Of a stretch of DNA of 64,000 nucleotides, positions 8,333-54,693 are shown piece by piece. The stretch's first letter is position 1; every line of letters begins with the position of its first letter. The DNA lies in IMG/VR virus record IMGVR_UViG_3300037119_005846, positions 32,031-96,030 of that record. One strand, written 5' to 3'. A program made the translations under genes and the position numbers. The DNA is from a virus. Under the pieces are notes generated by a model. The model searched no databases. It was not told where the DNA came from and was given only the letters and a program-made list of their open reading frames with translations.

Positions 8333-8350
8333 ACACCAAGTACAGCCAGG

Positions 8351-8379: not shown

Positions 8380-8426
8380 AAACGCAGACCTCAGACACAG
8401 ACCACAGACCCAGGGAGAGAGAAATC

Positions 8427-8462
8427 ATGACGATCAACGCCAACACCGAAGGCGACGACTGA
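8427..8462 (+). CDS. 11-aa leader peptide MTINANTEGDD
   Basis: Preceded by a ribosome binding site (agggagagag). Its stop shares one base with the ATG of the ParB-like gene, so it probably couples translation. Second case in this region of a tiny peptide between a promoter and the first real gene. Confidence 0.5.
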   Translation: MTINANTEGDD

Positions 8463-10551: not shown

Positions 10552-12051
10552 GTGCCCGTGTCATCGCTGCAGCCTGTCTACCCGCCGCCGGCCGGCCGCG
10601 CCGTCGAGGCTCCGTGGGGCGTCGCCGTCGCCGAGAGCGTCGTCCAGCACTTCGCCAGCACGACTACTCGTGATACAAACTGGACGACGCCGCCTGTCGG
10701 CGCGCTCTGCGCGACTCAGAGCGACAAGTTTCTGTGGTACTTCGCCGGCGGCACCGTCCCGACCGGCTGGAAGAAGATCGCGCAGGTAGCTCTCGACGTT
10801 ACCCCGGTCGCAGCCGCCGCGGTACAGACCATCGGCGACACCATGACCGGCCCGCTGATCATTAATGCTACACCGGGTCTCAAGATACGCCGCAGCAACA
10901 ACTTGCCGTACTTGCAGTTCGAAGACGTCACTGGCGTTACTCGATACGGCTACGTCCAGGGCACGGCAGCGGACATGGTCTATTACGTCGATGCGGCGAC
11001 AGCCGATCACAGTTTCTGGGTCAATAACGCGCGGAAGCTGGAGATCAACAGCACTAACACTGACGTCTGGACAACGCTCACCGCACACCAGAGTATCGAC
11101 GTTACGAGTGGTATTGATGTGAACGGCGGCGGCGTGCGCATCGGCGGCAACGGCGCCCAGCTCAAACTGATTGACACGTCGACGTCCGCGTCTGACTTCC
11201 ACGACACCTACATCGAGTTCTTCGGCGACGGCGTGTCGATGGCGTCGCCTGGCACCCGGTCCGGCTACGTCGGGTTCCCCGGTAGCACGACGATGTACAT
11301 GAACAACGAAGTCCTCAACGGAGGGATACGACTTCAAGGCAATGGGTCGGGCACGGTCACCCTCGCGACCGGCACCAGCGGCGACATCAACATGTTGTGT
11401 GGGTCGGCCGGCAACATCTTGCTGAACGCGGCCACCTGGGGCGTGATGTCTTCGGGAGGTGCCGAGCGCGGCCGTTGGGGTTCGACGTTCATGTGGGGCA
11501 AGACGAGCAGTGGTCACGGCAACGTTGGTTGCGAGTTGTTCGAGTCCGGGGTGATCTACGCGACGACGGCGACCGCATCGTCGTGTCTGGTGCTGCGTCA
11601 CAACACTGACACCGATGGCGGCTCATTCATCCTGTTCCTCAACTCGGCCGGCGGTTCCCTGTCGACGCTCAGTCAAGATGACGTCGCCCCCACCGGCATC
11701 AAGATCAACAACTGCACGACGACCACCCCATCCGACTACCGGTTGAAGGACGACCTCGGCCCGATGGTCGGCGCCCTCGACCGGGTCCTCCAGCTGCAAC
11801 CAAAGCATCTGGCGTGGAAGGAGACCGGCGTCGAGTTCGACGGGTTCATCGCCCACGAACTGGCGACGGTGGTGCCGGACGCCGTAGACGGCGACAAGGA
11901 CGCCGTCTACGACGAAACCGAAGCCGAAATGATGGGCGTCCAACCGGGCGACATCAAAGCGCAGCAGCTCGACCAGACGCCGCTGATCCCGTTGCTGGTC
12001 GCCGCCGTTCAGGAACTCGCCGAGCGCCTCGCCGCGCTCGAAGATGCATGA
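10552..12051 (+). CDS. Tail fibre / receptor-binding protein with S74 intramolecular chaperone
   Basis: 499 aa. Repetitive beta-rich body (many GxGG and INxT segments, e.g. GDTMTGPLIIN near residue 100, typical of tail fibres). The C-terminal ~105 residues are a Peptidase_S74 domain starting SDYRLKDD: S394 and K399 fit the Ser-Lys dyad that cleaves the chaperone off after trimerisation. FIAHELATVVPDAV is also a family hallmark, followed by a C-terminal coiled coil. Likely forms a trimeric fibre at the tail tip. Placed just upstream of the lysis genes. Confidence 0.85.
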   Translation: MPVSSLQPVYPPPAGRAVEAPWGVAVAESVVQHFASTTTRDTNWTTPPVGALCATQSDKFLWYFAGGTVPTGWKKIAQVALDVTPVAAAAVQTIGDTMTGPLIINATPGLKIRRSNNLPYLQFEDVTGVTRYGYVQGTAADMVYYVDAATADHSFWVNNARKLEINSTNTDVWTTLTAHQSIDVTSGIDVNGGGVRIGGNGAQLKLIDTSTSASDFHDTYIEFFGDGVSMASPGTRSGYVGFPGSTTMYMNNEVLNGGIRLQGNGSGTVTLATGTSGDINMLCGSAGNILLNAATWGVMSSGGAERGRWGSTFMWGKTSSGHGNVGCELFESGVIYATTATASSCLVLRHNTDTDGGSFILFLNSAGGSLSTLSQDDVAPTGIKINNCTTTTPSDYRLKDDLGPMVGALDRVLQLQPKHLAWKETGVEFDGFIAHELATVVPDAVDGDKDAVYDETEAEMMGVQPGDIKAQQLDQTPLIPLLVAAVQELAERLAALEDA

Positions 12052-12065
12052 CATCGGAGGAACAG

Positions 12066-12401
12066 ATGACCACGACCATCGAGCCGCCGCCTCCGGGCAC
12101 CGTCTTCACGAGAGACCCGGTGCAGATCACGACAGGCATCTTCACGCTGCTGCTCGGAGTCACCGCCGTGCTGACGATGACCGGTGTGCTCGAGGAGGTG
12201 ATCAGCGGCGTCATTACCGGAGTGCTCACGGCCGCCTGGGCCGCCGTCAACCAGCTGCTCGTGCGCCCGGCCACGGTGCCCCGTCAGCCGCTGGCTGAGC
12301 TCGCATACGAAATGGCTCAGCCGGCGAGCACAGTCGCTCCGGCGTCCACTCTCGTGGTCGAGGTCGAGTCGGATCAGAAGAAGTCACCGCCGAAGAAGTA
12401 A
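12066..12401 (+). CDS. Holin-like membrane protein
   Basis: Strong ribosome binding site GGAGG 5 nt upstream favours the ATG at 12066; an ATG at 12048 overlapping the fibre stop is an alternative. Residues ~17-56 carry two hydrophobic segments (GIFTLLLGVTAVLTM and ISGVITGVLTAAWAAV). The tail is charged and Lys-rich (QKKSPPKK). Topology and position directly before two endolysin genes fit a holin controlling endolysin release. Confidence 0.65.
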   Translation: MTTTIEPPPPGTVFTRDPVQITTGIFTLLLGVTAVLTMTGVLEEVISGVITGVLTAAWAAVNQLLVRPATVPRQPLAELAYEMAQPASTVAPASTLVVEVESDQKKSPPKK

Positions 12402-20874: not shown

Positions 20875-21087
20875 ATGAACGACCTGCGCAAGAGCAAGTT
20901 CGAGACCAAGGTAGCAGCGGCTGAGGCCGCCGTTGCCGCCGGCGCCAAGCTGTACGTCGGTGGACGACGTACCGTCGCCACTGCAGAGGAAGAAGGCGAG
21001 ACACGGGTGTATAACCTCGGCGGCGGTGAGGGCGCCTACCAGTGGCGCTGGCTGACCGCGCTGGATGATCCGAGTGGCATTCGGTAA
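20875..21087 (+). CDS. Hypothetical 70-aa protein
   Basis: ATG after gaggcaagacgag. N-terminal helix (KSKFETKVAAAEAAVAAGA) followed by beta segments. Its last codons overlap the -35 and spacer of the promoter that drives Ku. No family recognised. Confidence 0.6.
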   Translation: MNDLRKSKFETKVAAAEAAVAAGAKLYVGGRRTVATAEEEGETRVYNLGGGEGAYQWRWLTALDDPSGIR

Positions 21088-21103
21088 CATCACAATGTAT
21101 AAT
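21075..21103 (+). promoter_or_regulatory. Phage promoter driving Ku, GTGG/TATAAT family
   Basis: -35 TGGCAT (21075-21080, preceded by G) lies in the end of the upstream gene. 17-nt spacer with CA at 8-9, TG-TATAAT at 21098-21103. A ~66-nt leader with ACACAGACAAAGGA leads to the Ku start. Confidence 0.8.
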
Positions 21104-21169
21104 GACATCAGCCAGCCGGCGAACCCGGCTGGCACCAGGACTTCAGACACAGACAAAGGAACCAACCCA

Positions 21170-21979
21170 ATGCACGCAACAGCCCCAGTGCCGAACCGAT
21201 CGACGTCATCGTTTGTCGTCTCCTTCGGCCTGATCAACATCCCGGTCAGCGTCTACACGACGGTGGCCGAGACCAAGGTCGCCCGCAAGGAGTTCACCGC
21301 GGACGGCCACGCCGTCGGCCGTAAGCCGTACGACAAGGAAACGGGCGCTGACGTCAACTTCGGTGACGTCGTCAAGATGGTCGAGGTCGGCGGCGCCACA
21401 GTGCCGCTGTCCGACGAGGAGATCGCTGGCGCGACCGGCCACGTCGCCGGTGTCGCGCCGATCGTCGGCCGCGTCTCGATGACCGAGCTCAACTCGGACT
21501 TCATTGCCGAGCGCGTCTACCAGCTTCGCCCGAAGAGCGACAAGAAGGTTCAGAAGGCGAGTGATCGCGCATTTGCGCTGCTGATCGCCACGCTGAAGGA
21601 GACAGACGAGGCCGCGCTGGTGCGAGTCAGCATCCGCGGCACTGTCGCCAAGTGGGGCGCGATCACACCGGACGGGTACCTCCGCATCATCCACAGCGCA
21701 GACCAGGTGAAGGCGGCGCTGCCAATGCCCGACGCGGTCGTCACCGAGAAGGAGACGGAGCTCGCCAAGGCACTCCTTGGCGCGATCCCGACACTGGCCG
21801 TGGAGGACCTCCGTGACGATTCCAGTGAGCGGATTGCCGCATACGTCGACGAGAAGCTGGCTGCTCTGGCTGGCACTGGCACACTGCTGACCGAGCCGAT
21901 GGCTCTGACGCCGGCCGCGGTCGATGACATGTTCGCAGCGCTTCAGGCAAGCATGGACGCCCTCGTGGCGAAAGGATGA
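21170..21979 (+). CDS. ku: Ku-like DNA end-binding protein
   Basis: 269 aa, about the size of bacterial Ku. SFVVSFGLINIPVSVYTTVAETKV is the typical Ku core opening, and the Ku bridge and barrel follow. Bacterial Ku forms homodimeric rings on DNA ends and recruits LigD; here it could protect or circularise the phage genome using host LigD, as proposed for Ku-carrying mycobacteriophages. No ligase gene is in the window. Own promoter and leader. Starts from the ATG after acaaagga. Confidence 0.9.
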   Translation: MHATAPVPNRSTSSFVVSFGLINIPVSVYTTVAETKVARKEFTADGHAVGRKPYDKETGADVNFGDVVKMVEVGGATVPLSDEEIAGATGHVAGVAPIVGRVSMTELNSDFIAERVYQLRPKSDKKVQKASDRAFALLIATLKETDEAALVRVSIRGTVAKWGAITPDGYLRIIHSADQVKAALPMPDAVVTEKETELAKALLGAIPTLAVEDLRDDSSERIAAYVDEKLAALAGTGTLLTEPMALTPAAVDDMFAALQASMDALVAKG

Positions 21980-24810: not shown

Positions 24811-25142
24811 CTCGTGAGAAGGTGCCGTGCCCGGAGTGCGGCGTCGAGTACTACCGCGGTCCCGGCATCACGATGCATCGCAAGAGCGCGCACGGCGTTC
24901 AGCCGGCCGGCAACGCGGCCTTGCGGAAGCGTGATCGTGAGCGAAAGCGTCGCTCTCGCGCGAAGGCAAAGTCTTTGACGCCGACGACGGCGCAAGTCGA
25001 CGCTGGCTCGGAGTTGACGGCCGACGACATTCTCGTCTCATTCGTCTCCATGCGATGGCCGGAGCGAATGCCGACATCCGTGATGGCACCACTGCTTGAC
25101 TGGCGTGAGGCGACCAGTCGGATGCTCGAGCGAACTCAGTGA
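24807..25142 (+). CDS. 111-aa C2H2 zinc-finger protein
   Basis: ATGA overlap. PCPECGVEYYRGPGITMHRKSAHG is a near-canonical C2H2 finger (CxxC, HxxxxH) at residues ~8-29, followed by a strongly basic helix (RKRDRERKRRSRAKAK). The C-terminal third is helical. Probably binds DNA or RNA. Confidence 0.7.
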   Translation: MTREKVPCPECGVEYYRGPGITMHRKSAHGVQPAGNAALRKRDRERKRRSRAKAKSLTPTTAQVDAGSELTADDILVSFVSMRWPERMPTSVMAPLLDWREATSRMLERTQ

Positions 25143-25630
25143 CCTACTCGTACTCGTCTCGTGTCGTCCTCGGGCAGTGTCCCGGCGAGGGTGGCCCGCT
25201 GCCGTTCTTCGGCGACGTGCCATCGGACTCCGCCGGGCGCATGGACAAGTTGATGGCGAACTGGCGCGATCATGCGCGGGGCGTGAACCTCTGGTGGAAC
25301 GCGCACGACTGGCAGTGGGGCAATCCGCATCACCTCGACGACATCGTCGCGGAGACTCAGTGTGAGCTGATCGTTGGCCTTGGCACGTTCGTCTGCACAG
25401 AGCTCGGCATGAACAAGCGCGGTGACATCTTCGAAGCTGAGGTCGTGCCATTGCTCACTCGCGAAGTTCTCGCAGTTCGCTTTCCACACCCGTCCGGGCG
25501 CAATCACTTCTGGAACATGGAGCGCAACCGTGAGTGGGCGGCACACGCGCTCCAGTACTCTCTGACAGCGCCGATCAGCGAGATCCGTGAACTGACGAAG
25601 CATGACAGGCGCTGGGTAGCAGCACGATGA
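25139..25630 (+). CDS. Uracil-DNA-glycosylase-like protein
   Basis: 163 aa, GTG start, GTGA overlap. VVLGQCPGEGG (UDG-superfamily motif 1, GxxPG) near residue 10 and RFPHPSGRNHFWN (HPS motif 2) near residue 120 bracket a Rossmann-like core (CELIVGLGTFVC). Could remove uracil or a modified base from DNA, or act as a UDG-fold binding protein. Stands next to a Cas4/RecB-like nuclease. Confidence 0.65.
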   Translation: MTYSYSSRVVLGQCPGEGGPLPFFGDVPSDSAGRMDKLMANWRDHARGVNLWWNAHDWQWGNPHHLDDIVAETQCELIVGLGTFVCTELGMNKRGDIFEAEVVPLLTREVLAVRFPHPSGRNHFWNMERNREWAAHALQYSLTAPISEIRELTKHDRRWVAAR

Positions 25631-26547
25631 GTGAAGCCATAAGAGTCAGTCACAGCGACATCGCGTCGTTCCTTCGCTGCCGGCGCCAGTTCGCGTGGTC
25701 ATACATCGACGATTTCCGCGAGCCGGAGCGACTCTGGGGGCCGATGGCCACGGGCAGCCGCGTCCACAGCGCGATCGAGCAGGCGCGCAAGACGGCGACG
25801 CCGATTGTGGAGACCCACAAGGCACTGGCCGCTCGTGATGAAGAAGTCTTGATCGCGACTCGCGCTCCCGGCTGGGCCCTGGACGATTTCTACGAGAACG
25901 TGATCATGGGCCGCAACTGCTGCATCGCCTATGAGCGCTGGGTCGAGACCGAGGGACCGTACGATGGCTACGACGTCGAGTCAGAGGTGCTCCTCGAGGC
26001 ACCGATCCTGGACGGCCGCGCGATTCTCATCGGCAAGGCCGACCTGCTGCTGACTCGGCGCGACGACGGCTGGATCTTCACGGACGACATCAAGACGTCG
26101 TCGACGCACGTCCGGACGACGCTGCCGGTGATCCTCGAGAAGAGTTATCAGCATATCTGCTATCAGGGCCTCGCTCAGCGGATGAACCCGGAGGCGCACA
26201 TCGGCGAGGCGTGGTACACGATCCTGTTCAAGGCGAAGAATCCGGCGAGGATGACTCACCCGATGGTGGAACGGTTCCGGGTGCCCGGCCATATCAGCGC
26301 GCTGCCGAATCGCATGCGACAGGTCGAGACGATCGTCGCCGACATGCTGGCGCTGATGGAGCGCCGCGAGAGTGAGGGTGCACACGTCGCCTACCCGACT
26401 CCCGGAGACAGCTGCCGGTGGTGTCCCATGAGATTACCGTGTGGGTTGGTAGATGAAAATCCTTTGGGCGCTCGAGCACTGCTCGATGTTGAGTTCGTGC
26501 GCGGCGGCCGCCATGCACGGTACGACAATGAAGGAAACAGGAGATGA
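25627..26547 (+). CDS. Cas4/RecB-family PD-(D/E)XK exonuclease
   Basis: 306 aa. N-terminal FLRCRRQFAWSYI with the first Cys, the nuclease core GKADLLL and DDIKTS (motifs II-III), and the C-terminal CRWCPMRLPCG cluster fit an Fe-S-containing Cas4/AddB-like exonuclease. Usually resects DNA ends for recombination. ATGA-coupled to the UDG-like gene and close to the Sak4-like and SSB-like genes, so part of the phage recombination set. Confidence 0.8.
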   Translation: MSEAIRVSHSDIASFLRCRRQFAWSYIDDFREPERLWGPMATGSRVHSAIEQARKTATPIVETHKALAARDEEVLIATRAPGWALDDFYENVIMGRNCCIAYERWVETEGPYDGYDVESEVLLEAPILDGRAILIGKADLLLTRRDDGWIFTDDIKTSSTHVRTTLPVILEKSYQHICYQGLAQRMNPEAHIGEAWYTILFKAKNPARMTHPMVERFRVPGHISALPNRMRQVETIVADMLALMERRESEGAHVAYPTPGDSCRWCPMRLPCGLVDENPLGARALLDVEFVRGGRHARYDNEGNRR

Positions 26548-26548
26548 C

Positions 26549-26881
26549 ATGACGAACACTATGACTACTGACACGACCGTAGAGCTGATGTCGCCATCGC
26601 CGGACGTAGCGAAGATGCGTGATCAGCTCGACATAATCGGCATGCTCGCGCTGCTGCCGTATCCGTTCACGCCAGATCAGGCGATGAAGGTATTCCGCCT
26701 CATCGACCACATCGTGCTTGACTTGAGCGCTCCGCTGATCGACATCTGGCCGCGTGAGGAATCGAAGAATCGCTACATCGCGCTGAAGTTCAAGGGCTTC
26801 TCCAAGGCGATGTACGTGCACTCGAACACGCGCACCGATAGCTACGTCGACATGCCGGACGGTCGGCGAGTGACTCTTTGA
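26549..26881 (+). CDS. Hypothetical 110-aa protein
   Basis: ATG after ggaaacaggag; starts just after the nuclease stop. N-terminus polar (MTNTMTTDTTVEL), then a helical core (MRDQLDIIGMLALLPYPFTPDQAMKVF). No family recognised; located in the recombination cluster. Confidence 0.6.
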   Translation: MTNTMTTDTTVELMSPSPDVAKMRDQLDIIGMLALLPYPFTPDQAMKVFRLIDHIVLDLSAPLIDIWPREESKNRYIALKFKGFSKAMYVHSNTRTDSYVDMPDGRRVTL

Positions 26882-26906
26882 TCATGATCAACGACAGGAG
26901 AATGAC

Positions 26907-27257
26907 ATGACCACGAAGATGCCCAAGCTGATGGGCACGCAGGAGATGGTGGCGCGCATCCGCGTGCACTCGCTCGACGAGGCCGATGACTTCCTCGAGG
27001 CGTTCGCGCCAGGCGCTCGCAAGAAGGGAACGGTTCAGATCCTTCGAGCGACGCGCACGAAGGGCGTGGACTCGTATCTGCTGACGATCAAGTTCACGCA
27101 CACCGCCCAGAACATGACGCAGACGGTCGACGGCTACCCGTCGGGCAACGGCGACGGCGACTACAACACGCGTCGCTTTATCCAGGAGGCGTCTGACCGC
27201 AGCAAGATCGATCCGATGAAGGTCGAGATCGAGCTCGGGCGCTGGGTGCGTGCGTGA
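26907..27257 (+). CDS. Hypothetical 116-aa protein
   Basis: Good ribosome binding site (gacaggag). Alpha/beta composition, with a basic patch (GARKKGTVQILRATRTKG) and a C-terminal IELGRW. Possibly an accessory to the recombination genes around it. Not recognised. Confidence 0.65.
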   Translation: MTTKMPKLMGTQEMVARIRVHSLDEADDFLEAFAPGARKKGTVQILRATRTKGVDSYLLTIKFTHTAQNMTQTVDGYPSGNGDGDYNTRRFIQEASDRSKIDPMKVEIELGRWVRA

Positions 27258-27412
27258 GCGACCGCCCGTACGACTTCAGCGTGCCGATCGACGAGGCTCA
27301 CCGGATCTCGCTCGAGCTCACGGGTCTCATCAACGAGGCGTACGAGCAAGCACGCAGGCGGGCGGCTGCATGGCAGCCCGCGCCCTGTCCACCGCGCTGT
27401 ACTCGCAGCTGA
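27254..27412 (+). CDS. Hypothetical 52-aa protein
   Basis: GTGA overlap start. Contains one amphipathic helix (IDEAHRISLELTGLINEAYEQA) and a Cys-containing tail (PCPPRC). Ends before the leader of the Sak4-like gene. Confidence 0.5.
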   Translation: MSDRPYDFSVPIDEAHRISLELTGLINEAYEQARRRAAAWQPAPCPPRCTRS

Positions 27413-27459
27413 GTACACGGTAGTGTAGACGATATCGACACAGACAGGAAGATGATGAA

Positions 27460-28263
27460 GTGAATCGGTCACTGACGATCCTCGTTCACGGGGCTAGTAA
27501 GAGTGGCAAGAGCTCGTTCAGTGTCACGTGTCCGACGCCGCGTCTGTATCTCGATGTCGAGTCGGCCGGCCGATTCCTCGCGATCAAGGCAGTTTCATGG
27601 GACCCTGCCCGTGAAGCACCGCCAGTAGAGGATGGCACGTGGGACACGGCCGTGGTCGCGACGCGTGACTGGGGTACGGTTGAGCGAGCGTATCAGTGGC
27701 TTGCCTCAGGTCAGCATCCGTTCAAGAGCGTCATCATCGACTCTGTCAGCGAGCTCCAGCAGCGCTTCATCGAGAGCAAGTCAGGCCGCAATCAGCCGAC
27801 GATGCAGGATTGGGGCGCGGTGTTCCGCGTGGTCTCCGGTCTCGTCCGCGACATTCGCGACTTGACGATGCATCAGACCAAGCCGCTCGAGTGCGTCGTC
27901 ATGACGGCGATGACTCGACAGCAGGAGGGGATGTGGCGCCCGTGGGTCAGTGGGCAGCTCCAGACCGTCTTGCCGTACCTGCTCGACGTAGTGGCGTACT
28001 TGTGGACCGAGCAGGCGGTCGACGAGACGACCGGAGAAGTGAAGGAGGTTCGTAAGATCCTGACGCGCCGGACGACACAGTTCGAGGCCGGCGAACGCGT
28101 CGACGGCAAGATCCCGATCGTGGTGGAGGTGACGGCACGCGCTCCTGGTGAGCCGGGCACAGACATCGACCGCCTGATCGACATGGTCTTTCCGCCGACG
28201 GCGACAACTGAGACTGAGACAACACCAATCACCACAACAACGGAGACTACAGATGACCATTGA
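27460..28263 (+). CDS. Sak4-like RecA-fold single-strand annealing ATPase
   Basis: 267 aa. Walker A GASKSGKS at residues 11-18, Walker B-like VIIDSVSEL near residue 95, and the RecA-like core ending in a Thr-rich tail. This matches phage Sak4/AAA_24 recombinases. Works with an SSB, which is encoded immediately downstream. Preceded by the ACACAGACAGGA leader at 27438. GTG start. Confidence 0.8.
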   Translation: MNRSLTILVHGASKSGKSSFSVTCPTPRLYLDVESAGRFLAIKAVSWDPAREAPPVEDGTWDTAVVATRDWGTVERAYQWLASGQHPFKSVIIDSVSELQQRFIESKSGRNQPTMQDWGAVFRVVSGLVRDIRDLTMHQTKPLECVVMTAMTRQQEGMWRPWVSGQLQTVLPYLLDVVAYLWTEQAVDETTGEVKEVRKILTRRTTQFEAGERVDGKIPIVVEVTARAPGEPGTDIDRLIDMVFPPTATTETETTPITTTTETTDDH

Positions 28264-28801
28264 CTGGGGCGCGGAACTCGACCGCGTCGAACAGGCCACC
28301 AAGCCCATGGCTGAGGGGCCGCACACCTTCCGGATCGTCGACGCGAAGCCCGTGACAGCGAGCACCGGCAACAAGATGATCAAGCTCACGTGCAAGGTCG
28401 AGGGCGGCCCTGACGACGGCAAGCTCGGCTACAACAACATCGTGTTCACGTTCGACAACCCGCGGGCACTGAAGATGACACTGCGGCGCCTGCGTGCCCT
28501 CGGCATCGACGCTGACTTGCTGCGCGGCGAGAAGCCGTCGATCGAGCAGATCGCCGGCAAGCTGATGGGTCGCAGCGCGGAAGGCAACGTGACGCATCGC
28601 CAGTGGAACGGCGAGACGCAGGACGACATCGACTTCGGCGCGGCCGGCTCTGGCACGCCGGTCATCCCGGCGGCGCCCGTCGTCGGTGGCCCCGCTCCAG
28701 TTGTCGCTCCCGCGCCGACCAAGGAGGCGGCGGCCCCGCCGGCGCCGGTCATCCCGACCGAGCCGACGACGCCGGTCGCGCAGAGCGAGGAATCGTTCTG
28801 A
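28253..28801 (+). CDS. SSB-like protein (DUF669-type) with acidic C-terminal tip
   Basis: 182 aa. Residues ~20-125 are a beta-rich domain (HTFRIVDAKPV, NKMIKLTCKVEGG, the LRALGID helix and GKLMGRSAEGNVTHRQW) like DUF669-type ssDNA-binding partners of Sak4 recombinases. A long Pro/Ala linker ends in AQSEESF, resembling the acidic-plus-Phe tip of SSBs that recruits partners. Overlaps the Sak4-like gene by 11 bases. Confidence 0.7.
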   Translation: MTIDWGAELDRVEQATKPMAEGPHTFRIVDAKPVTASTGNKMIKLTCKVEGGPDDGKLGYNNIVFTFDNPRALKMTLRRLRALGIDADLLRGEKPSIEQIAGKLMGRSAEGNVTHRQWNGETQDDIDFGAAGSGTPVIPAAPVVGGPAPVVAPAPTKEAAAPPAPVIPTEPTTPVAQSEESF

Positions 28802-28802
28802 C

Positions 28803-29228
28803 ATGACCGATCGCCTCGACGAGATCTTCGCCCGGCAGCAGCAGCTCCAGCTGGAGTCGTTCCACATCGACGTCACCGCCCTCGAGGGCCTGCCTCGCGA
28901 GAGGTACGTCGTCCAGAACGCGTTCGCTGTCGTCGCGGAGCTCGTCGAGGCGCTCGACAACATCGACTGGAAGATGTGGACGACCGGCAGCCCGGCGCGG
29001 TTTAAGGACCGGGACAGCTTCGTCCGCGAGATGGTCGACGTCCTGCATTTCATGGTGAACCTCCTTCTGATCGCCGACTGCGATGCCACAGAGCTGTATA
29101 GTCGTTATCTCAGGAAGGCCGAAGTCAACGCGCAGCGTCAGCTGGACGGGTACGACGGCGTCAGCACAAAGAAGGATGGGCGAGCGATGGACGAGCCCGA
29201 GTGGCGTCGAGAGGAGGTGGAACCATGA
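28803..29228 (+). CDS. Dimeric all-alpha dUTPase (MazG-like)
   Basis: 141 aa. The conserved helices VQNAFAVVAELVEALDNIDWK, REMVDVLHFMVNLLLIAD and YSRYLRKAEVNAQRQLDGYDG carry the ExxE and ExxD Mg ligands and the uracil-site motif of dUTPase_2/MazG enzymes. Hydrolyses dUTP to dUMP, keeping uracil out of phage DNA and feeding dTMP synthesis. Confidence 0.85.
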   Translation: MTDRLDEIFARQQQLQLESFHIDVTALEGLPRERYVVQNAFAVVAELVEALDNIDWKMWTTGSPARFKDRDSFVREMVDVLHFMVNLLLIADCDATELYSRYLRKAEVNAQRQLDGYDGVSTKKDGRAMDEPEWRREEVEP

Positions 29229-35493: not shown

Positions 35494-36564
35494 ATGAAGA
35501 TACTCTGCACTGCGTTCAACAGCGCGGCGCTGACCGAGGCGACGCACCGGTGGCATATTCGTAATGCCGTCGGCGCCTACGTCGCCGCGCTGAGAGACCT
35601 CGGGCACGACGTCGACTGGCGACGCTCGACGATGGATGACGCCGATCTCGTGCAGACACGCCGTGATCAGTACGACGTCATTATCGCTAACGTCGTTCCG
35701 CCGCTCAGTCTCGTCGCGATCGACTGGATTCCAGTCGTCAGACTGATGAACGCGGCGACCGAGCGTGGCATCCCCGTGATCATGTCCATCGACGACTGGA
35801 ATACAGACAACGTGACCCGCCGCGTCGAGCGCAACGGCGAGAATCCGAGTCTCGTTCTCGGCAAGGACTTCCACGCGAAGCGCGCCGGCTACGAGTGGGC
35901 GATGGCCGATCACGACCGGTACGTCAGGATGTGCTTCGACTTCGCCGCGACCAAGTTCCCGACGCTCGTCTGCGCCTACGAGTTCGGTACTGCCGAGGGC
36001 TTCGCAAGGCTCGCGAGCCGGCTGCCGGGACGAGTGTACCAGTTGGACCCGACGCCGTACGTTCACCACAACTACTACCCGCAGATGCCCGCGAAGCGTG
36101 ACCGCGTGTGGGTCATGTCATCGCTCGCGTGTCATAACAAGTGGCTATCTGAGCACGAGTGGAAGTGGCCGGGCGAGTATTACCTGACGGTTGGAGAGAA
36201 ATGGCCGCCGCCACCCGGCTGGGAGATCCATCCGCCGATCAAGCAGCACGACATTATCGAGCGCTACGGCCAGGTCTGGGGCGTGCTCCTTCAGCCGTAC
36301 AAGAGAATGCTCAGCTCGGGCTGGTGGCGTGACCGGTGGGTGACTGCGACGAGATCAGGCACGGTACTGTATGTCGATCCGGCCGACGCCGGCCGATTGA
36401 CTGACCACAACTTCAGACGTGAGATTGGTGACATCGAGAACATGTCGACAGAGGACCTAGCGCGGCTGGCGAATCGTCAGCGTGAGGAGATCGAAGACTG
36501 GCTCTGGACTAAGGAGCGACTCCAGCGCGAGCTGTCACTCGTGCTCGAGCTGGAGTGCCGATGA
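35494..36564 (+). CDS. Glycosyltransferase-like protein (GT-B fold)
   Basis: 356 aa. The start MKILCTAFNSAALT and AYVAALRDLGHDVDW, then YDVIIANVVPPLSL and IPVIMSIDDW, follow the N-terminal Rossmann half of GT4-type glycosyltransferases. C-terminal RYGQVWGVLLQPYKRM...GTVLYVDPAD resembles the donor-binding half. In phages such enzymes modify DNA bases, virion proteins or host surface sugars. It sits beside a C5-cytosine methyltransferase, and a possible dCMP hydroxymethylase is encoded at 49148. Confidence 0.6.
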   Translation: MKILCTAFNSAALTEATHRWHIRNAVGAYVAALRDLGHDVDWRRSTMDDADLVQTRRDQYDVIIANVVPPLSLVAIDWIPVVRLMNAATERGIPVIMSIDDWNTDNVTRRVERNGENPSLVLGKDFHAKRAGYEWAMADHDRYVRMCFDFAATKFPTLVCAYEFGTAEGFARLASRLPGRVYQLDPTPYVHHNYYPQMPAKRDRVWVMSSLACHNKWLSEHEWKWPGEYYLTVGEKWPPPPGWEIHPPIKQHDIIERYGQVWGVLLQPYKRMLSSGWWRDRWVTATRSGTVLYVDPADAGRLTDHNFRREIGDIENMSTEDLARLANRQREEIEDWLWTKERLQRELSLVLELECR

Positions 36565-47774: not shown

Positions 47775-48260
47775 GTGGCTGAGTTCATCGTGGTCCAGGA
47801 CGGGTCACGCAAGATCACTTTCGAGGGCGATCTCATCGCCTCGGTGTCGAGCGTAGGACCGTCCAAGCCGAGGTGGTCGGAGTACCGCCTGTACAAGACG
47901 ATCTCGGGAACGTACGTCCTCGAGAAGGTGGGGCGGTCGATCGTCGTCCACACCCCCGGATGCCCGGAGATCATCGACACCCTCGATCGGTTCCAGGATA
48001 AGAACCCGGGTAAGGACCCGTCTGACGGCTTCTGGCTGTGCGAGAGCTGTATGACTAGTCGCTACGACATCACGGCGCTTCTCGTCGAGCACGACAGGCA
48101 CTGGGTCACGATCACCGAGGAGCCAGCCCACGTCGTTGACGCGCTCTACCGCAAGCGGGACGGCGCTCGCCACCTGCCGCGGCTCAGCCTGGAGCTGCTC
48201 GACCAGGCGGCCCGCGTCGATGACAATCTGGCCGATGCCTTCCGCGTCGAACGGATCTGA
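47775..48260 (+). CDS. Conserved hypothetical 161-aa protein
   Basis: GTG start with aaggaga ribosome binding site. The start EFIVVQDGSRKITFEGDLIASVSS and RWSEYRLYKTISGTYVLEKVGRS match a protein found in many actinophages. A CESCM pair near residue 93 could bind metal. A tail helix follows. Role unknown; begins the nucleotide-metabolism unit. Confidence 0.7.
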   Translation: MAEFIVVQDGSRKITFEGDLIASVSSVGPSKPRWSEYRLYKTISGTYVLEKVGRSIVVHTPGCPEIIDTLDRFQDKNPGKDPSDGFWLCESCMTSRYDITALLVEHDRHWVTITEEPAHVVDALYRKRDGARHLPRLSLELLDQAARVDDNLADAFRVERI

Positions 48261-48262
48261 TC

Positions 48263-49129
48263 ATGTGGATCATTCTCGAGGGAGTGGACGGCAGTGGCAA
48301 ATCTACACTCTGCGACATCATTGCCGAGTCGATCCCCGACATCCCTGACGTCATACGCACGCACCTGGGTGCGCCCAAGTCTGCCGCCAGCGCACTGATC
48401 GAGTGCACTGACGACGAGCCGTTCGGCACGTACCGACCTGGCGGCGGTGCTCACATCATCAGCGACCGTCACCACTGGGGCTGCCCGGTGTACGGACCTG
48501 TCCTGCGGCCGGAGCGTGACACGGACGGCTACGGCGACTTCAACAAGGCCGGCTGGCGATACTGTGAGCTGTTCATCGCGTCCCGGGGTGGTCGGACGAT
48601 CTACGTCGACGTCAGCGCCGAGACCGCGCAGGAGCGCATACGGCATCGAGGCGACGCGAACTACGACGTTGAGACGCTGATCGCCATCACGCCGGAGCTG
48701 CTCGACCGCTACCACTGGTTGCTGACCGAGGCGCCGACGCTGGGGCTCCACATCGTCGAGCCGAGCATGGCTGAGCTGACGGTCCTTGCGCGCGACATCA
48801 TCGAGCTCGGCTCGATCCACGAGGACGAGGCCGCGCCGCTGGCGCACTACCCGGACTACATCGGTAAGCCGCAGCCCAAGAAGCTGCTCGTCTGTGAGCC
48901 GACCAAGGATGCGCGGCTAGACATTCTTGCTAGCTTCAGTGACGATGAGTGGGCCGATGTCGGCTTTTGCTCGAGCGCGCACACGCGTGACTCGCTGCAC
49001 GAGCTAGCGTCGACGCTGGATTACCCGCAGATCGTCGGTGTTGGTCGTCTGCCGAGCGACGCGGACGCATTTGTGTTCGACATGGCTGGTAGGGTTGAGT
49101 CAGCCCGCGACGGCGCAGTGGCTATCTGA
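48263..49129 (+). CDS. Deoxynucleotide monophosphate (thymidylate-like) kinase
   Basis: 288 aa. P-loop LEGVDGSGKST at residues ~5-15 and the LID-type RIRHRGDANYD, with helices as in the thymidylate kinase family. A C-terminal ~90-residue extension (from ~KLLVCEPTKDA) is an extra alpha/beta domain not needed for kinase activity. May phosphorylate dTMP or, given the neighbouring gene, hydroxymethyl-dCMP as T4 gp1 does. Confidence 0.75.
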   Translation: MWIILEGVDGSGKSTLCDIIAESIPDIPDVIRTHLGAPKSAASALIECTDDEPFGTYRPGGGAHIISDRHHWGCPVYGPVLRPERDTDGYGDFNKAGWRYCELFIASRGGRTIYVDVSAETAQERIRHRGDANYDVETLIAITPELLDRYHWLLTEAPTLGLHIVEPSMAELTVLARDIIELGSIHEDEAAPLAHYPDYIGKPQPKKLLVCEPTKDARLDILASFSDDEWADVGFCSSAHTRDSLHELASTLDYPQIVGVGRLPSDADAFVFDMAGRVESARDGAVAI

Positions 49130-49147
49130 CACAGACAGGAGACATAG

Positions 49148-50041
49148 ATGCATCACCGCAAGGTGAAGGATCTTCGACGCGAGTACGCGGACATCGTGTA
49201 CGAGGTGCTCACGCTCGGCGACAAGACCGCTCCGCGTGGCATTCCGACGCACGAGATCCTCAACTACGTGATGACGTTCGACGACGCGCGCAACTGCACG
49301 TTCCCGTCCGGCATCGGCCGGCTGGTCAGCCCGCGAGTACTGGCTGCCGAGGGGATGCAGTGGCTTGGCGGGGTCAGCGACCTGGCGCAGCTGGAGTCGG
49401 TCAGCGCCAAGTTCCTCGAGTACTCGGACGACGGCACGCGGCTGTACGGCGCCTACGGGCCGCGATCACACAAGGGTCTCTGGCGCGCGATCAGGCTTCT
49501 GTACAATGACCCGGACACTCGTCAGGCCGTCGTGTCAATCTGGAGCCATGACGAGCTCCATTCGACGCGTGACCTCCCGTGCACAGTCAGCTGGTCGTTC
49601 ATCATCCGCCGCGGTCGGCTGCACATGACGACGTTCATGCGCTCGAATGACGTCTGGACCGGCCTCGCGTACGACGTCCCGATCATGGCACGCATCCAGA
49701 CGGCGATGGCATGGGCGCTTGGCGTCGACGTCGGCTCGTACACGCATCACGCTCAGTCGATGCACATCTACGAGAGTGACCTCGCCGGGCTGGACTCGCT
49801 GCAGTCGGTGATCCTGGAAGTCGATGAGCCGCCATTCTTCGACGACATCGGCAATGTGCACCATCTGCCGTCGCAGCGCTGGAAGTACGTTGTTGAGTGG
49901 GCCATCGACGCCGCTCAGGGCGCGTCGCATCTGCCGCCGGCGTTCGACTGGTACTCACGTCAACTTGCGGCGACCGAGCACCACCCGTACTTCTGCGACC
50001 GCTGCCGGTACTACACACCTGCCGTCTGCGAGTGCGAGTGA
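49148..50041 (+). CDS. Thymidylate-synthase-family enzyme, probable dCMP hydroxymethylase
   Basis: 297 aa, after leader ACACAGACAGGA and ribosome binding site. The TS fold is clear: catalytic C145 in DLPCTVSW and RSNDVWTGLAYD for the substrate pocket. At the position of the dUMP-selecting Asn (E. coli TS N177) there is D176, the substitution found in T4 dCMP hydroxymethylase. It should therefore act on dCMP, adding a hydroxymethyl (or methyl) group at C5 with methylene-THF. A C-terminal CDRCRYYTPAVCEC tail, probably zinc-binding, is an addition to the family. Followed by dCMP deaminase. Confidence 0.8.
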   Translation: MHHRKVKDLRREYADIVYEVLTLGDKTAPRGIPTHEILNYVMTFDDARNCTFPSGIGRLVSPRVLAAEGMQWLGGVSDLAQLESVSAKFLEYSDDGTRLYGAYGPRSHKGLWRAIRLLYNDPDTRQAVVSIWSHDELHSTRDLPCTVSWSFIIRRGRLHMTTFMRSNDVWTGLAYDVPIMARIQTAMAWALGVDVGSYTHHAQSMHIYESDLAGLDSLQSVILEVDEPPFFDDIGNVHHLPSQRWKYVVEWAIDAAQGASHLPPAFDWYSRQLAATEHHPYFCDRCRYYTPAVCECE

Positions 50042-50496
50042 GGCCGACGTGGGACGCGACGTGGATGGCGATGGCCGACAGCGTCGGGCAACGAAGCCTC
50101 TGCAGCCGCGCTAAGATCGGTTGTGTCATCGTCACTCGCGACAATCGCGTCGAGTCGGCGACATATAACGGCCCCGCACCGGCGTTCGATCACCACGAGC
50201 TCGAGTGCGACCACTGGTGCGAGCGGATGATGACCGGCGAGAAGGGCGTCAACTATGACACATGCCCGTCGACGCATGCGGAAGCTTCCGCGATCGCGCG
50301 AAGCGACTGGTCTCGACTTCAAGGCGCGACGTTGTACGTCAACGGATCATGCTGCCAGAATTGTTCGAAGCTGATCGCTCAGACAGGCATCAAGCGAGTA
50401 GTGCATCGCGTCACCGAGAGCATGGCGTATCGCCATCCCGAGCTGGTCGAGCAGTACTTGCGGAGCATGCTCATCGAGGTGAGACGTGCCACTTGA
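50038..50496 (+). CDS. dCMP deaminase
   Basis: 152 aa, GTG start, GTGA overlap. Opens RPTWDATWMAMADSVGQRSLCSR, as in dCMP deaminases. Zinc ligands are HAE (in TCPSTHAEASAI) and CCQNC; the family's PCxxC is SCCQNC here, so Pro is lost but the CxxC is kept. Converts dCMP to dUMP for dTMP synthesis. Confidence 0.8.
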   Translation: MRPTWDATWMAMADSVGQRSLCSRAKIGCVIVTRDNRVESATYNGPAPAFDHHELECDHWCERMMTGEKGVNYDTCPSTHAEASAIARSDWSRLQGATLYVNGSCCQNCSKLIAQTGIKRVVHRVTESMAYRHPELVEQYLRSMLIEVRRAT

Positions 50497-52261
50497 CCCG
50501 ATGCAGGCGGTCAACTTCGTCGAGTCTGCCGACGACGTCGAGCGACTGTGGCGCTGGATGTCCGCTGAACCGCTGATCGCGACCGACACCGAGACGACCG
50601 GCTTCGGCCTGTACGACGATGACTTCAGCGTTCGGCTGATCCAGTTCGGCTCGCCCACTGAAGCGTGGGTGGTCGACTTCCAGCGCTGGCGCGGCCTGGT
50701 CGAGGACATCTTCATCCGCTACCAGGGTGACTGGGTGATGCACAACGCTCGCTTCGACGTTACGGGTCTGGCCCAGGAAGGGATCGCGGTCCCATGGCAT
50801 CGCCTTCACGACACCATGGTCCAGATGCGCCTGGCCCGCCCGACCGAGTCGGCGGCACTGAAGAACGCCGCCGACAAATACATCAGCCCGATCAGCAGCG
50901 ACGCTCAGAAGGTTCTTCGCGAGGCGTTCCGCCGCCAGGGATGGAACTGGGCGACAGTGCCGATCGACTTCCCGCCGTACCGCTTCTATGCAGCCCTGGA
51001 CCCGATCTTGACAGCCCGGCTGTATCACACCCCGGTCTGCCGCGAGGGCCGCGAGAGTGACGTCTACGCCCTCGAGATGCAAACCAAGGCGGTGTGCTCA
51101 CGCATGGAGCAGAACGGGCTCCGGATCGACCGCGACTTCTGCCGCCGCAATGCCGAGCGCCTGCGCGAGCACGCCGACGCGCTGAAGGCCGAGATGGACA
51201 GTCGTCACGGCATCAGCATCACCAGCGCCATGCAGCTGAGTCACTGGTTCGCCAGTCGGCCGGACGCGCTCGAGTGGATGACCAAGGAGACTCACAAGGG
51301 CAAGCTCAGCGTCGACAAGGAAGTGCTCCACGTGCTGGTCGGCCTCGGCGGCGAGGTCGGCGAGATGGCGTCTGCCGTGCTCGCGGTCCGCCGCGACGAG
51401 AAGATCGCCGGCTCGTACCTGGAGAACTTCTTGCGGATGTCCGACGGTGATGACTTGCTCCACCCGCAGATCGAGACGGTCGCCGCGCGCACCGGTCGCA
51501 TGTCGGTGAAAGAGCCCGGTCTTCAGACGCTGCCGAAGCCGACGGTTGAGAGTGATTACAGAATCGTCCGTGAGGGGATCGTGCCGTTCACCGACGACGA
51601 GGTGATCATCAGCTGCGACCTCGACCAAGTGGAGTTGCGCCTGGCCGCGATCATCTCCAAGGACCAGGGCCTGATCGACGCGTTCGCCGCGGCAGATGCC
51701 GGCGAAGACGACTTCTTCACACTCCTGGCTCAGGGTGTCTACCGCGACCCAACGATCACCAAGGATAACAAGCGTCGAGCCCGGATAAAGACATTTTCTT
51801 ACGCGTCACTTTACGGCGCGTCGGTGCGCAAGATGGCGATCAGCGCCGGCGTCCCTGTCGCGGAGATGCGCGACATCCGTGACGACATGGCGGCGCGGTT
51901 CCCGGGTTTCTTCAGCATGGGGCTCGAGGCGCAGCACCAGCTTCGTGAGAACGGCGGCTACATCAAGACACTGTTCGGCCGCAAGTTGCCGGTCGACGAG
52001 TCGAAAGAGTATGTGTCGACAAATTATTTGATACAGGGCAGCGCTGCCGACCTGCTCAAGCGGTCACTCGTCCTGATGGCGCAGGCCGGCCTCGAGGAGT
52101 ACATGCTCGTGCCCGTCCACGACGAGATCGTGCTGTCCGTGCCGCACGCCGACGCCGACGAGGTCGGCCGCGAGGTCGAGCGCGCGATGACGTCGACGGA
52201 GTTCAGCGTGCCGATCACCGCGTCGTCGTCGACCGGCGACAACTGGGCAGCGGCGAAATAG
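50486..52261 (+). CDS. polA: DNA polymerase I (family A) with 3'-5' exonuclease
   Basis: 591 aa, GTG start. Exonuclease motif I DTET (D34, E36), and NARFDVTGL as motif II. Polymerase motif A is DLDQVELR (D378), the O-helix KTFSYASLYG has K435 and Y439, and motif C is VHDEI (D546). Tyr at 439 replaces the Phe of E. coli Pol I (F762), as in T7 polymerase. No 5'-3' nuclease domain, as usual for phage PolA. Main replicative polymerase candidate. Confidence 0.9.
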   Translation: MPLDPMQAVNFVESADDVERLWRWMSAEPLIATDTETTGFGLYDDDFSVRLIQFGSPTEAWVVDFQRWRGLVEDIFIRYQGDWVMHNARFDVTGLAQEGIAVPWHRLHDTMVQMRLARPTESAALKNAADKYISPISSDAQKVLREAFRRQGWNWATVPIDFPPYRFYAALDPILTARLYHTPVCREGRESDVYALEMQTKAVCSRMEQNGLRIDRDFCRRNAERLREHADALKAEMDSRHGISITSAMQLSHWFASRPDALEWMTKETHKGKLSVDKEVLHVLVGLGGEVGEMASAVLAVRRDEKIAGSYLENFLRMSDGDDLLHPQIETVAARTGRMSVKEPGLQTLPKPTVESDYRIVREGIVPFTDDEVIISCDLDQVELRLAAIISKDQGLIDAFAAADAGEDDFFTLLAQGVYRDPTITKDNKRRARIKTFSYASLYGASVRKMAISAGVPVAEMRDIRDDMAARFPGFFSMGLEAQHQLRENGGYIKTLFGRKLPVDESKEYVSTNYLIQGSAADLLKRSLVLMAQAGLEEYMLVPVHDEIVLSVPHADADEVGREVERAMTSTEFSVPITASSSTGDNWAAAK

Positions 52262-52677
52262 TGATCATCCTCGGCGTCGACCCCGGCATGCACACCGGCG
52301 CGGTGATGCTCGACCTGCCGAGGATGCTGGTCACGTTCAGCGTCGAGATGAGCGTCGAGGACTTCTTCGACTCGGCCCGGCTGCTGGTCGGTCAGGCTAA
52401 CATCGTCGCGGTCGAGCAGTTCACGATCAGCATGCGGACCCTTCAGATGACTCGGCAGCCGGACGCGCTGCACATCATCGGCATCCTTCGGTTCCTCTGC
52501 CACGAGCGGTCGACGCCGATGCTGACGCAGCTGGTCGCAGACGCCAAGGCGTCGTTCAGCGACGAGACCCTGCGTGACCTCCACGTCTGGAGCTCGTCCA
52601 ACCATATTCGGGACGCGACGCGGCACGCGCTCCTGGCCGCGCGTAGGAGTGGTCATGACGTGCACGTCGATGTATAA
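52261..52677 (+). CDS. RuvC-like Holliday junction resolvase
   Basis: 138 aa. RNase-H-fold pattern: ILGVDPGMHTGAV (first Asp), VAVEQF (Glu) and DATRHALLA (C-terminal acidic residue). Likely resolves branched DNA before packaging. Coupled to polA by TAGTGATC. Its TAA stop lies inside the TATAAT box of the next promoter. Confidence 0.75.
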   Translation: MIILGVDPGMHTGAVMLDLPRMLVTFSVEMSVEDFFDSARLLVGQANIVAVEQFTISMRTLQMTRQPDALHIIGILRFLCHERSTPMLTQLVADAKASFSDETLRDLHVWSSSNHIRDATRHALLAARRSGHDVHVDV

Positions 52678-52678
52678 T
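52650..52678 (+). promoter_or_regulatory. Phage promoter, GTGG/TATAAT family
   Basis: -35 TGGTCA (52650-52655, preceded by G), 17-nt spacer with CA at 8-9, TG-TATAAT at 52673-52678, all but the last base within the resolvase gene. ATG at 52685 is 6 nt downstream. Confidence 0.8.
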
Positions 52679-52684
52679 GGCCTC

Positions 52685-52885
52685 ATGACACAGACAACGA
52701 CAGACACGCTCAACCGCGAGGCCAGCGAGCTCGGCCTTCTTCCCGGCAACTGGCCCGTGGAACTGACCATCGACGGCACCCGGTTCTACCGCGTCGCCGT
52801 CAAGCGTGACGCTGACTTCGACGTCGTCTACGTCCGCTACGAGGACAACAACGACACCCGCCAGCTGAGGGTCTGGAACGACTGA
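52685..52885 (+). CDS. Hypothetical 66-aa protein (leaderless)
   Basis: N-terminus MTQTTTD, the coding form of the ATGACACAGACA block. Small alpha/beta (VELTIDGTRFYRVAVK, DVVYVRYEDNND). Overlaps the helicase ATG by one base, so it is cotranscribed and perhaps cotranslated with it. Confidence 0.6.
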   Translation: MTQTTTDTLNREASELGLLPGNWPVELTIDGTRFYRVAVKRDADFDVVYVRYEDNNDTRQLRVWND

Positions 52886-54693
52886 TGACCGCCACCATCG
52901 CCCCGGCCAGCGCCGCCTCGTGCGATCTGAGCCCGTACCACGCCGACCGGATCGCCGTCTGGAGCGACTACCGCCTCAAGGACAGCGTCAAGCGCGTCCC
53001 CGGCGCCCGCTGGGACGGCGACAACCGATGCTGGACCGTGCCCCTGACATGGCCCAGCTGCCTCGCGCTGCGCGCCGAGCTCGGCCGCAGCCTGACCATC
53101 GGCGGCGGCCTCAACGCATGGGCCAAGGAGCAGCGCGAGGCCAAGGAAGCTGTCAAGGCCCTCTGCGGCGCGCACGTCCTCGACGAACTCGACGTCGGCG
53201 ACGCCGAGTGCTACGTCACGATGTACCCACACCAGCGCACCGGCGCGCGGGTGATCGCGGACACGCAGGCGTTCGCGCTGTTCGATGAGATGGGCGCCGG
53301 CAAGGGTCGGACGACTCTGGCTGGCCTCCGCCTCGCGAAGGAGGACGGCGAAGAAGTCTTCCCGGCGCTGATCGTGGCGCCGAAGTCGATGCTGATCACC
53401 TGGGCGCGTGACGAGATCCCGCGGTACTTCCCCGAGACGACCATCAGCGTGGTCGCTGGCACGCCGACCAAGGTGCGCGAGGCACTCAAGCCCGGCTTCG
53501 ACGTCTACGTCTGCTCGTACGACACGGCTCGCCGCTACTCGCGCCACGCCGGCTACCCAACTGTGACGCTGACGCCCGACGAGGCCAAGGACAAGGAGCT
53601 GAACGCTATTCCCTTCAAGTCCGTGGTCGCCGACGAGGCACAGCGGATCAAGAACCCGTCAGCCAAGCAGACTCGCGCGCTCTGGCAGCTCGGCCGTCAC
53701 GCCGACTACCGCGTGGCGCTGAGCGGCACGCCGATCCAGGACACGCCAGAGGACCTCTGGTCGATCCTCCATTTCATCTCGCCTGATGAGTATCCGGGCA
53801 AGACGGCCTTTGTCGACCGGTTCCTCCGTGTCAGCTACAACCCATGGGGCGGTCGCGAGATCAAGGGCCTCAATCCGCTGAACGAGATCGAGTTCCGCGC
53901 CAACGCGGAGACGCGGTTCCGCCGAGTGACCAAGGCGATGGCACTGACGTTCCTCCCGCCGAAGGTGTTCGAGACCCGCTGGGTCGAGCTGCCGCCGCGG
54001 ATGCGCAAGGCATACGAGTCGATGGTGGACGTCCTCGTCGCTGAGCTGGAGGGCGGCGACAAGCTCGTCGCTCAGTCCGTCCTCGAGCGGGCCGGCCGGT
54101 TGATCCAGATCGCCAACGCGTCTGGGACAGTTACTGACGTCGAGGAGACTGACGCCGACGGCGTGACCAAGATCAAGCACGTCTTCAAGATGGAGCTGCC
54201 GAGCCCGAAGATCGAGGCGTTCTTAGAAGACGTCGCCGAGGGTGACTTCGACGACCAGCAGGTGGTCGTGTTCTCGGACAGCCGCCAGCTGATCGACTTG
54301 CTCAGCGCGGAGATGACGCGGAAGAAGCTTCCTCACGTCACGGTCACTGGAGCGGTCACGGGCGACGACCGTCAGGAGGCAGTTGACGCGTTCCAGCGAG
54401 GGGACGTCCAATTCATCCTCATCACGCGCGCCGGCGGCGAAGGCCTTACCCTTACTGCCGCGTCGGTGATGGTCCGCCTGGTCAGAAGCTGGAGCTACAT
54501 CGTCCACACCCAGTCCGAGGATCGGGTGCACCGGATCGGCAGCGAGGTCCACGACTCGATTCTGTACGTGGATTACATCACAGATGATACTGTAGAGTTG
54601 TCTCAACTGGCACGTTTGAACAGCAAGCGTGAACGAGCAACAGAGGTACTTCGTGATGATGAGCTACTCGACATGCTGAAGCCGAAGAAATGA
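52885..54693 (+). CDS. SNF2-type DNA helicase/translocase with HARP-like N-terminus
   Basis: 602 aa. The N-terminal ~60 residues (VKRVPGARWDGDNRCWTVPL) resemble the HARP fold of SMARCAL1-type annealing helicases. Helicase motifs: I in FDEMGAGKGRTT (variant of DEMGLGKT), Ia LIVAPKSML, II DEAQRIKN, III ALSGTPIQ, V GGEGLTLTAA and VI QSEDRVHRIGS. Probably remodels replication forks or strips proteins from DNA. Confidence 0.85.
   Translation: MTATIAPASAASCDLSPYHADRIAVWSDYRLKDSVKRVPGARWDGDNRCWTVPLTWPSCLALRAELGRSLTIGGGLNAWAKEQREAKEAVKALCGAHVLDELDVGDAECYVTMYPHQRTGARVIADTQAFALFDEMGAGKGRTTLAGLRLAKEDGEEVFPALIVAPKSMLITWARDEIPRYFPETTISVVAGTPTKVREALKPGFDVYVCSYDTARRYSRHAGYPTVTLTPDEAKDKELNAIPFKSVVADEAQRIKNPSAKQTRALWQLGRHADYRVALSGTPIQDTPEDLWSILHFISPDEYPGKTAFVDRFLRVSYNPWGGREIKGLNPLNEIEFRANAETRFRRVTKAMALTFLPPKVFETRWVELPPRMRKAYESMVDVLVAELEGGDKLVAQSVLERAGRLIQIANASGTVTDVEETDADGVTKIKHVFKMELPSPKIEAFLEDVAEGDFDDQQVVVFSDSRQLIDLLSAEMTRKKLPHVTVTGAVTGDDRQEAVDAFQRGDVQFILITRAGGEGLTLTAASVMVRLVRSWSYIVHTQSEDRVHRIGSEVHDSILYVDYITDDTVELSQLARLNSKRERATEVLRDDELLDMLKPKK

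Follow-up and report, generated by a model that had tools for sequence, protein, structure and literature searches.

Does the thymidylate synthase (TS) homologue at this locus act on dUMP, or does it modify dCMP and so supply 5-hydroxymethylcytosine (hmC) for the virion DNA? The gene lies in a window of 64,000 nucleotides, by which we mean the whole stretch of DNA analysed here (bases 32031–96030 of the 96,030-base IMG/VR virus record IMGVR_UViG_3300037119_005846; 63.5% GC). The virus is uncultivated and its host is probably an actinobacterium. A first-pass annotation had proposed a dCMP hydroxymethylase on account of a single aspartate, accompanied by a T4-like set of genes for making and glycosylating hmC. 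The features referred to below are collected in Table 1.

Table 1. Positions in the window of the genes and codons discussed, and the basis of each assignment
Feature	Position	Strand	Basis
Conserved protein without assigned function, cassette head	47775..48260	+	Homologues in related loci
P-loop deoxynucleoside monophosphate kinase, candidate hmdCMP kinase	48263..49129	+	phrog_761 (6.6e-12), weak PF02223
Predicted dCMP hydroxymethylase (TS superfamily)	49148..50041	+	PF00303, alignments and residue tables, MilA top solved match (profile and fold)
Predicted roles: Cys145 nucleophile; Asp142 water-activating; Asp176 cytosine-selecting; also Thr146, Asn167, Asp168	in 49148..50041
Codon of Asp142 (E. 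coli ThyA Leu143, T4 gp42 Asp145), three residues before catalytic Cys145	49571..49573	+	Alignment
Codon of Asp176 (E. coli ThyA Asn177, T4 gp42 Asp179)	49673..49675	+	Alignment
dCMP deaminase	50038..50496	+	PF00383 (4e-17), phrog_174
PolA-type DNA polymerase, presumed modified-dCTP incorporation	50486..52261	+	NCBIfam DNA polymerase I matches under curated cut-offs; conserved position
All-alpha NTP pyrophosphohydrolase, candidate dCTPase	28803..29228	+	PF08761; PHROGs 173, 18650 and 12184, all common to T4 gp56 dCTPase
GT-B-type glycosyltransferase, candidate hmC-DNA glycosyltransferase	35494..36564	+	Predicted fold, homology to annotated glycosyltransferases, linkage

Active site of the TS homologue

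The open reading frame encodes 297 aa, begins with ATG and is preceded by AGGAG. That its product is a TS homologue, as had been claimed, was borne out by matches to PF00303 (1.8e-20) and to thymidylate synthase PHROGs (down to 1e-38). The 96-kb record encodes no other TS homologue; neither ThyX nor DHFR was found in this record, which is possibly a fragment. Aligned by MAFFT with E. coli ThyA, T4 gp42, SPO1 gp29 and others, the protein keeps the catalytic residues (Cys145, Glu68, Tyr103, Arg165, Ser166, Asp168, His206, and Tyr208). Among these, Cys145, Glu68, and Tyr103 correspond to the hydroxymethylase marks, namely the catalytic Cys and the equivalents of Glu58 and Tyr94. The protein ends in a Cys-rich tail, FCDRCRYYTPAVCECE (49979–50041), possibly a zinc-binding knob; among the related loci a comparable end was seen in one tree neighbour only (L045).

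The alignment pairs Asp176 with Asn177 of E. coli ThyA and thus confirms that the aspartate stands opposite the dUMP-selecting Asn. The residue had also been called diagnostic, which holds for cytosine selection but not for hydroxymethylation by itself: according to Liu and Santi (1992), as cited in PMC8670742, the exchange of Asn for Asp alone converts TS into a dCMP methylase. Homologues from the clade of the 5-methylcytosine (5mC) phage Xp12 and an RB69 enzyme share this Asp, and Asp176 alone was rejected as proof of hydroxymethylation. Since Asp177 (E. coli numbering) cannot tell 5-hydroxymethyl-, 5-methyl-, and 5-hydroxy-dCMP synthesis apart, enzymes of each kind were compared at positions 143, 147, 168, 169, and 177 of E. 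coli TS. Five reference chemistries were considered: dTMP synthase, dUMP hydroxymethylase, dCMP/CMP hydroxymethylase, dCMP methylase, and 5-hydroxy-dCMP synthase. Of all TS positions in the MetaGPA study, 177 and 147 showed the strongest association with modified-cytosine phage DNA (PMC8670742).

At the five positions the protein of the window reads D/T/N/D/D. The same residues are found in the dCMP hydroxymethylase T4 gp42 and in the CMP hydroxymethylase MilA, and in no others among the five reference chemistries. This supports the dCMP-hydroxymethylase reading, as does Asp142, the equivalent of T4 Asp145. The latter activates water, its exchange in D145N kills the activity, and the authors of the T4 structure proposed this Asp as a hydroxymethylase signature (PMC6400193). 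Their second proposed signature residue, Ser94 (PMC6400193), corresponds to a Ser or Thr two residues before the Tyr. Here the protein of the window has Gly101; in the same alignment MilA has Gly and SPO1 gp29 has Ala. As SPO1 gp29 and MilA are without it, Ser94 was rejected as a universal hydroxymethylase marker. Position 80, a Trp that contacts folate in T4 gp42 and TS, is Phe89 in the protein of the window. Loss of this Trp was likewise rejected as a hydroxymethylase marker, the Trp being kept in T4 gp42.

In MilA the deoxyribose-selecting Ser and Arg are replaced by Ala176 and Lys133 (PMC5175136). The protein of the window keeps the equivalents of Ser167 and Arg126 as Ser166 and Arg125, and the CMP-type residues are absent. 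dCMP, not CMP, is therefore the expected substrate. Judged by its active site, the enzyme very probably hydroxymethylates dCMP.

Relatives, fold, and phylogeny

In IMG/VR, 438 loci were found to encode relatives with the motif [FTY]MRS[NS]D[VI]W. Our locus comparisons cover the best 80 of these 438 loci, which contain 54 distinct sequences. All five key positions, Asp177 included, are invariant across the 54 sequences; because the column is Asp in every one of them, Asp176 is no chance change.

The order kinase–TS–deaminase recurs in the Gordonia phages GMA2, Forza, Mareelih, Sixama, GodonK, and Phendrix and in the uncultured DSL-LC01. Their TS homologues are only about 30–38% identical to the protein of the window, and the genes are annotated merely as thymidylate synthase, glycosyltransferase or hypothetical. 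D/T/N/D/D is present in all five TS homologues that were read out (GMA2, Sixama, Phendrix, Mareelih, and DSL-LC01). Forza, BlueNGold, and Boopy, which were compared by tblastn, gave matches equal to that of Mareelih in score and extent.

Homologues were also seen outside this group. Genomes of Virgisporangium and Paractinoplanes (L112, L113, and L114, about 8001–8603) encode one with the full dCMP-hydroxymethylase residue set, and no cassette gene was matched within 8 kb on either side; these may be prophage remnants or part of a chromosomal pathway. The homologue in a Propionibacteriaceae MAG (L118, 7644–8759) has Asp177 and Thr147 but Asn143, a change that abolishes the activity of T4 gp42.

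The first-pass annotation had likened the enzyme to T4 gp42. The residue pattern is indeed that of gp42, but the closest solved relative is MilA (PDB 5jnh, 5b6d), which ranks first among solved proteins whether sequence, profile or fold is compared. With the family profile MilA scores 176 bits versus 121 bits for the best TS. In the fold search with the predicted enzyme structure MilA came first and the dCMP hydroxylase 9iqu second; this structure is weak (pLDDT 64.5), which counts against the hydroxymethylase reading, as do Gly101 and Phe89 at the positions of Ser94 and Trp80. MilA differs in having Ala176/Lys133 for ribose instead of Ser/Arg for deoxyribose, and it serves antibiotic synthesis. 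With T4 gp42 the enzyme shares, apart from the five residues, the deoxy-selecting Ser/Arg, the lack of a TS-type C-terminus, and the partners, namely kinase, dCTPase, dCMP deaminase, and glycosyltransferases. It differs from gp42 in its very distant sequence, in Gly for Ser94 and Phe for T4 Trp82, and in a longer C-terminus.

A phylogeny had been suggested as a check. DSL-LC01, uncultured viruses, and three Gordonia phages (GodonK, Mareelih, and GMA2) join the protein of the window in a fully supported clade of our tree, which was built without the variable key columns; plain TS and the Xp12-clade homologues lie outside this clade. T4 gp42 sits on a very long branch, and its placement relative to the actinophage clade is not fixed by the tree. 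The phylogeny was therefore set aside as an arbiter: TS and the Xp12-clade homologues are set apart from all other sequences, but the deep order among the hydroxymethylases is not fixed either.

The gene cassette

Within the best 80 of the 438 loci the kinase gene is immediately 5' of the hydroxymethylase gene in 79 and the dCMP deaminase gene immediately 3' in 76. The best start of the deaminase gene in the window is 50038, not 49897, so that its start and the hydroxymethylase stop share 4 b (GTGA). The protein that opens the cassette (161 aa) has a homologue in 73 of the 80 loci, always just before the kinase, and also in Gordonia phages. Searches of Pfam, PHROGs, NCBIfam, and PADLOC gave no match for it; it is possibly part of the modification pathway. 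After the deaminase the loci continue with PolA, a RuvC-like resolvase, a helicase, a PD-(D/E)XK nuclease, a Sak4-like protein, and SSB; some of the 80 loci end before these outer genes. In the window the cassette genes are split into two blocks (25627–29228 and 47775–54693).

The kinase, dCMP deaminase, and dUTPase that had been placed near the TS homologue are all real, but the dUTPase/dCTPase-type enzyme is not adjacent and lies about 20 kb off. Its sequence assigns this product to the same all-alpha pyrophosphohydrolase family as the T4 gp56 dCTPase (direct comparison 1.2e-7, with a search set of two sequences) and makes it a candidate for dCTP specificity. Two further genes were observed, a phage-encoded Ku-type DNA end-binding protein at 21065–21979 (PF02735, 6.5e-21) and, outside the window at record positions 11642–12304, a Methyltransf_11-type methyltransferase (PF08241, 9.7e-10).

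The glycosyltransferase

The glycosyltransferase-like gene at 35494 had been the weakest item of the first-pass annotation, and it gained the most support. Its product has no sequence-profile match in Pfam, NCBIfam or PDB, and fold prediction was therefore used. With the AlphaFold2 model (pLDDT 73, TM about 0.5), all 21 Foldseek matches at E<=0.001 are glycosyltransferases. T4 alpha-glucosyltransferase is among them (1ya6, E 7e-6), with no detectable sequence similarity, and streptococcal Gtf3/GtfC match slightly better.

A homologue of the 35494 protein occurs in 12 of 50,697 phage records, all of them Gordonia phages or DSL-LC01, and all 12 belong to the hydroxymethylase-bearing actinophage clade. 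Among the Gordonia phages named above and DSL-LC01 only GodonK gave no match at E<=1e-5. The homologue in GMA2 is orf56. The GMA2 paper regards two other glycosyltransferases, orf4 and orf22, as possible DNA protectors and calls their purpose unclear; it makes no mention of a thymidylate synthase (PMC4524720).

We considered two alternatives for the target of the glycosyltransferase. First, it could glycosylate hmC in DNA; second, the hydroxymethylase could be real while the glycosyltransferase decorates the virion or host surface, the hmC staying bare or being modified by another enzyme. In the window the gene is situated 13 kb from the hydroxymethylase gene, beside virion genes and just ahead of a tail-gene block, as the second alternative would suggest. 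Another glycosyltransferase gene (PF00534, PHROG 3408) at record positions 25098–26201, outside the window and upstream of the large terminase gene, also speaks for it; the product of that gene could target the virion, the host surface or DNA. In relatives, by contrast, the 35494-type gene lies within the replication block, where it directly follows the SSB gene and is downstream of the hydroxymethylase gene. The glycosyltransferase or a tandem paralogue has this downstream position in 42 of the 49 IMG/VR loci that extend at least 9 kb beyond the hydroxymethylase gene. This linkage makes DNA a likely candidate substrate, and T4 alpha-glucosyltransferase is among the fold matches. A role away from DNA is thus rather unlikely. 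Glycosylation of hmC in DNA is on balance the favoured function, predicted with some reservation: the model is of moderate quality, and the DNA substrate is guessed from linkage.

Two glycosyltransferase-like genes stand in tandem in many related loci, resembling the paired glucosyltransferases of T4. In DSL-LC01 (L012:19900–23045) two such genes, inside the replication block, flank a gene for UDP-galactopyranose mutase. Among the loci looked at this mutase was found in DSL-LC01 only and was rejected as a conserved partner. As it directly follows a glycosyltransferase gene there, the sugar might be galactofuranose. We tentatively suggest that the 35494 gene could represent a family of DNA glycosyltransferases not described before, with no sequence relationship to the T4 enzymes, that adds a sugar new to phage DNA across a large actinophage clade (relatives of GMA2, Forza, and GodonK and many uncultured viruses).

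Alternative chemistries

In place of water, a reduction of the methylene intermediate would give 5-methyl-dCMP and a DNA with 5mC as in phage Xp12. The single exchange that suffices in TS (Liu and Santi 1992, cited in PMC8670742) and the Asp177 of the Bosavirus and Pamexvirus homologues are in line with such a dCMP methylase. These homologues, from relatives of Xp12, were used as stand-ins for it, and we infer that they are methylases of the Xp12 type. They read N/P/S/D/D and retain Trp80, however, in contrast to D143, T147, N168, and Phe in the protein of the window, and the tree parts them from it. Pamexvirus phages such as AXL1 have a DHFR (PMC9206674), whereas none was found in the record. 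Moreover, 5mC would deprive the linked glycosyltransferase of its usual hydroxyl acceptor. We regard the methylase as unlikely.

A flavin-dependent 5-hydroxy-dCMP synthase of the RB69 type (PDB 9iqc, 9iqu; the RB69 sequence used is near-identical to these) would provide 5-hydroxycytosine, which the glycosyltransferase would glycosylate directly. This enzyme of the TS superfamily shares Asp177 and Thr147, its phages carry linked sugar genes and glycosylate (PMC13390438), and 9iqu was the second-best fold match. But it reads E/T/Q/N/D and has F209, against D143, N168, D169, and Y209 in the protein of the window, and its chemistry is FAD-linked. D169, which is kept here, is the pterin-binding Asp of the folate-using members. 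The flavin-dependent reaction is very unlikely.

The dCMP deaminase directly downstream would be equally expected beside an enzyme using dUMP, which counts against our reading. Matches spanning most of the protein include SPO1-type dUMP hydroxymethylases; SPO1 gp29 is about 30% identical and has D143, N168, and a lost Trp80 in common with it. Nevertheless, a dUMP-using enzyme fed by the deaminase is hardly credible, since ordinary TS reads L/H/C-or-A/D/N with Trp80/Trp83 (here Asp, Thr, and Asp at 143, 147, and 177 and Phe/Tyr for the two Trp), and SPO1 gp29 and PAKlein3 read D/N/N/D/N, with Asn at 177 and 147 and therefore a uracil substrate, whereas the protein of the window and all 54 relatives have Asp and Thr.

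Proposed pathway

Most likely, then, the protein is a dCMP hydroxymethylase within an actinophage pathway to glycosylated hmC. The assignment builds on the active-site class, the conserved cassette, the glycosyltransferase fold, and the relationship to gp56, all of them read from sequence. Cys145 would attack C6 of dCMP, with Asp176 holding and protonating the cytosine, and methylene-tetrahydrofolate would donate the one-carbon unit. The methylene intermediate would be captured by water activated by Asp142, so that hmdCMP, not a methylated product, would be released. The adjacent kinase may begin the conversion of hmdCMP to hmdCTP, the gp56-like pyrophosphohydrolase would remove dCTP, and the phage PolA would put hmdCTP into DNA. 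After replication the GT-B-type enzyme may add a sugar to the hydroxymethyl group. The dCMP deaminase would provide dUMP for dTMP synthesis by the host. We infer each of these reactions, as well as the replacement of C in the virion DNA, its glycosylation, and the sugar. As a whole, the account up to hmC in virion DNA (dCMP hydroxymethylase, hmdCTP supply, and incorporation) is probably correct.

Implications for actinophages

The enzyme itself is of a known kind, and TS homologues with Asp177 are abundant in phages. Less known is a conserved actinophage cassette with an unclassified glycosyltransferase family; in a limited search we found no literature report of hydroxymethylcytosine in actinobacterial phages. 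The five-position signature allows thymidylate synthase annotations to be corrected from the sequence. Because the enzyme is usually kept near the same glycosyltransferase gene in related viruses, sugar-coated cytosine probably hides their DNA from bacterial defences, which would add a new branch to a known strategy. If this is true, an entire clade of actinophages, among them cultured Gordonia phages whose enzyme is annotated as plain thymidylate synthase, glycosylates its cytosines by means of a new set of DNA glycosyltransferases. This would bear on host range, on resistance to restriction and CRISPR, and on the sequencing of virion DNA.
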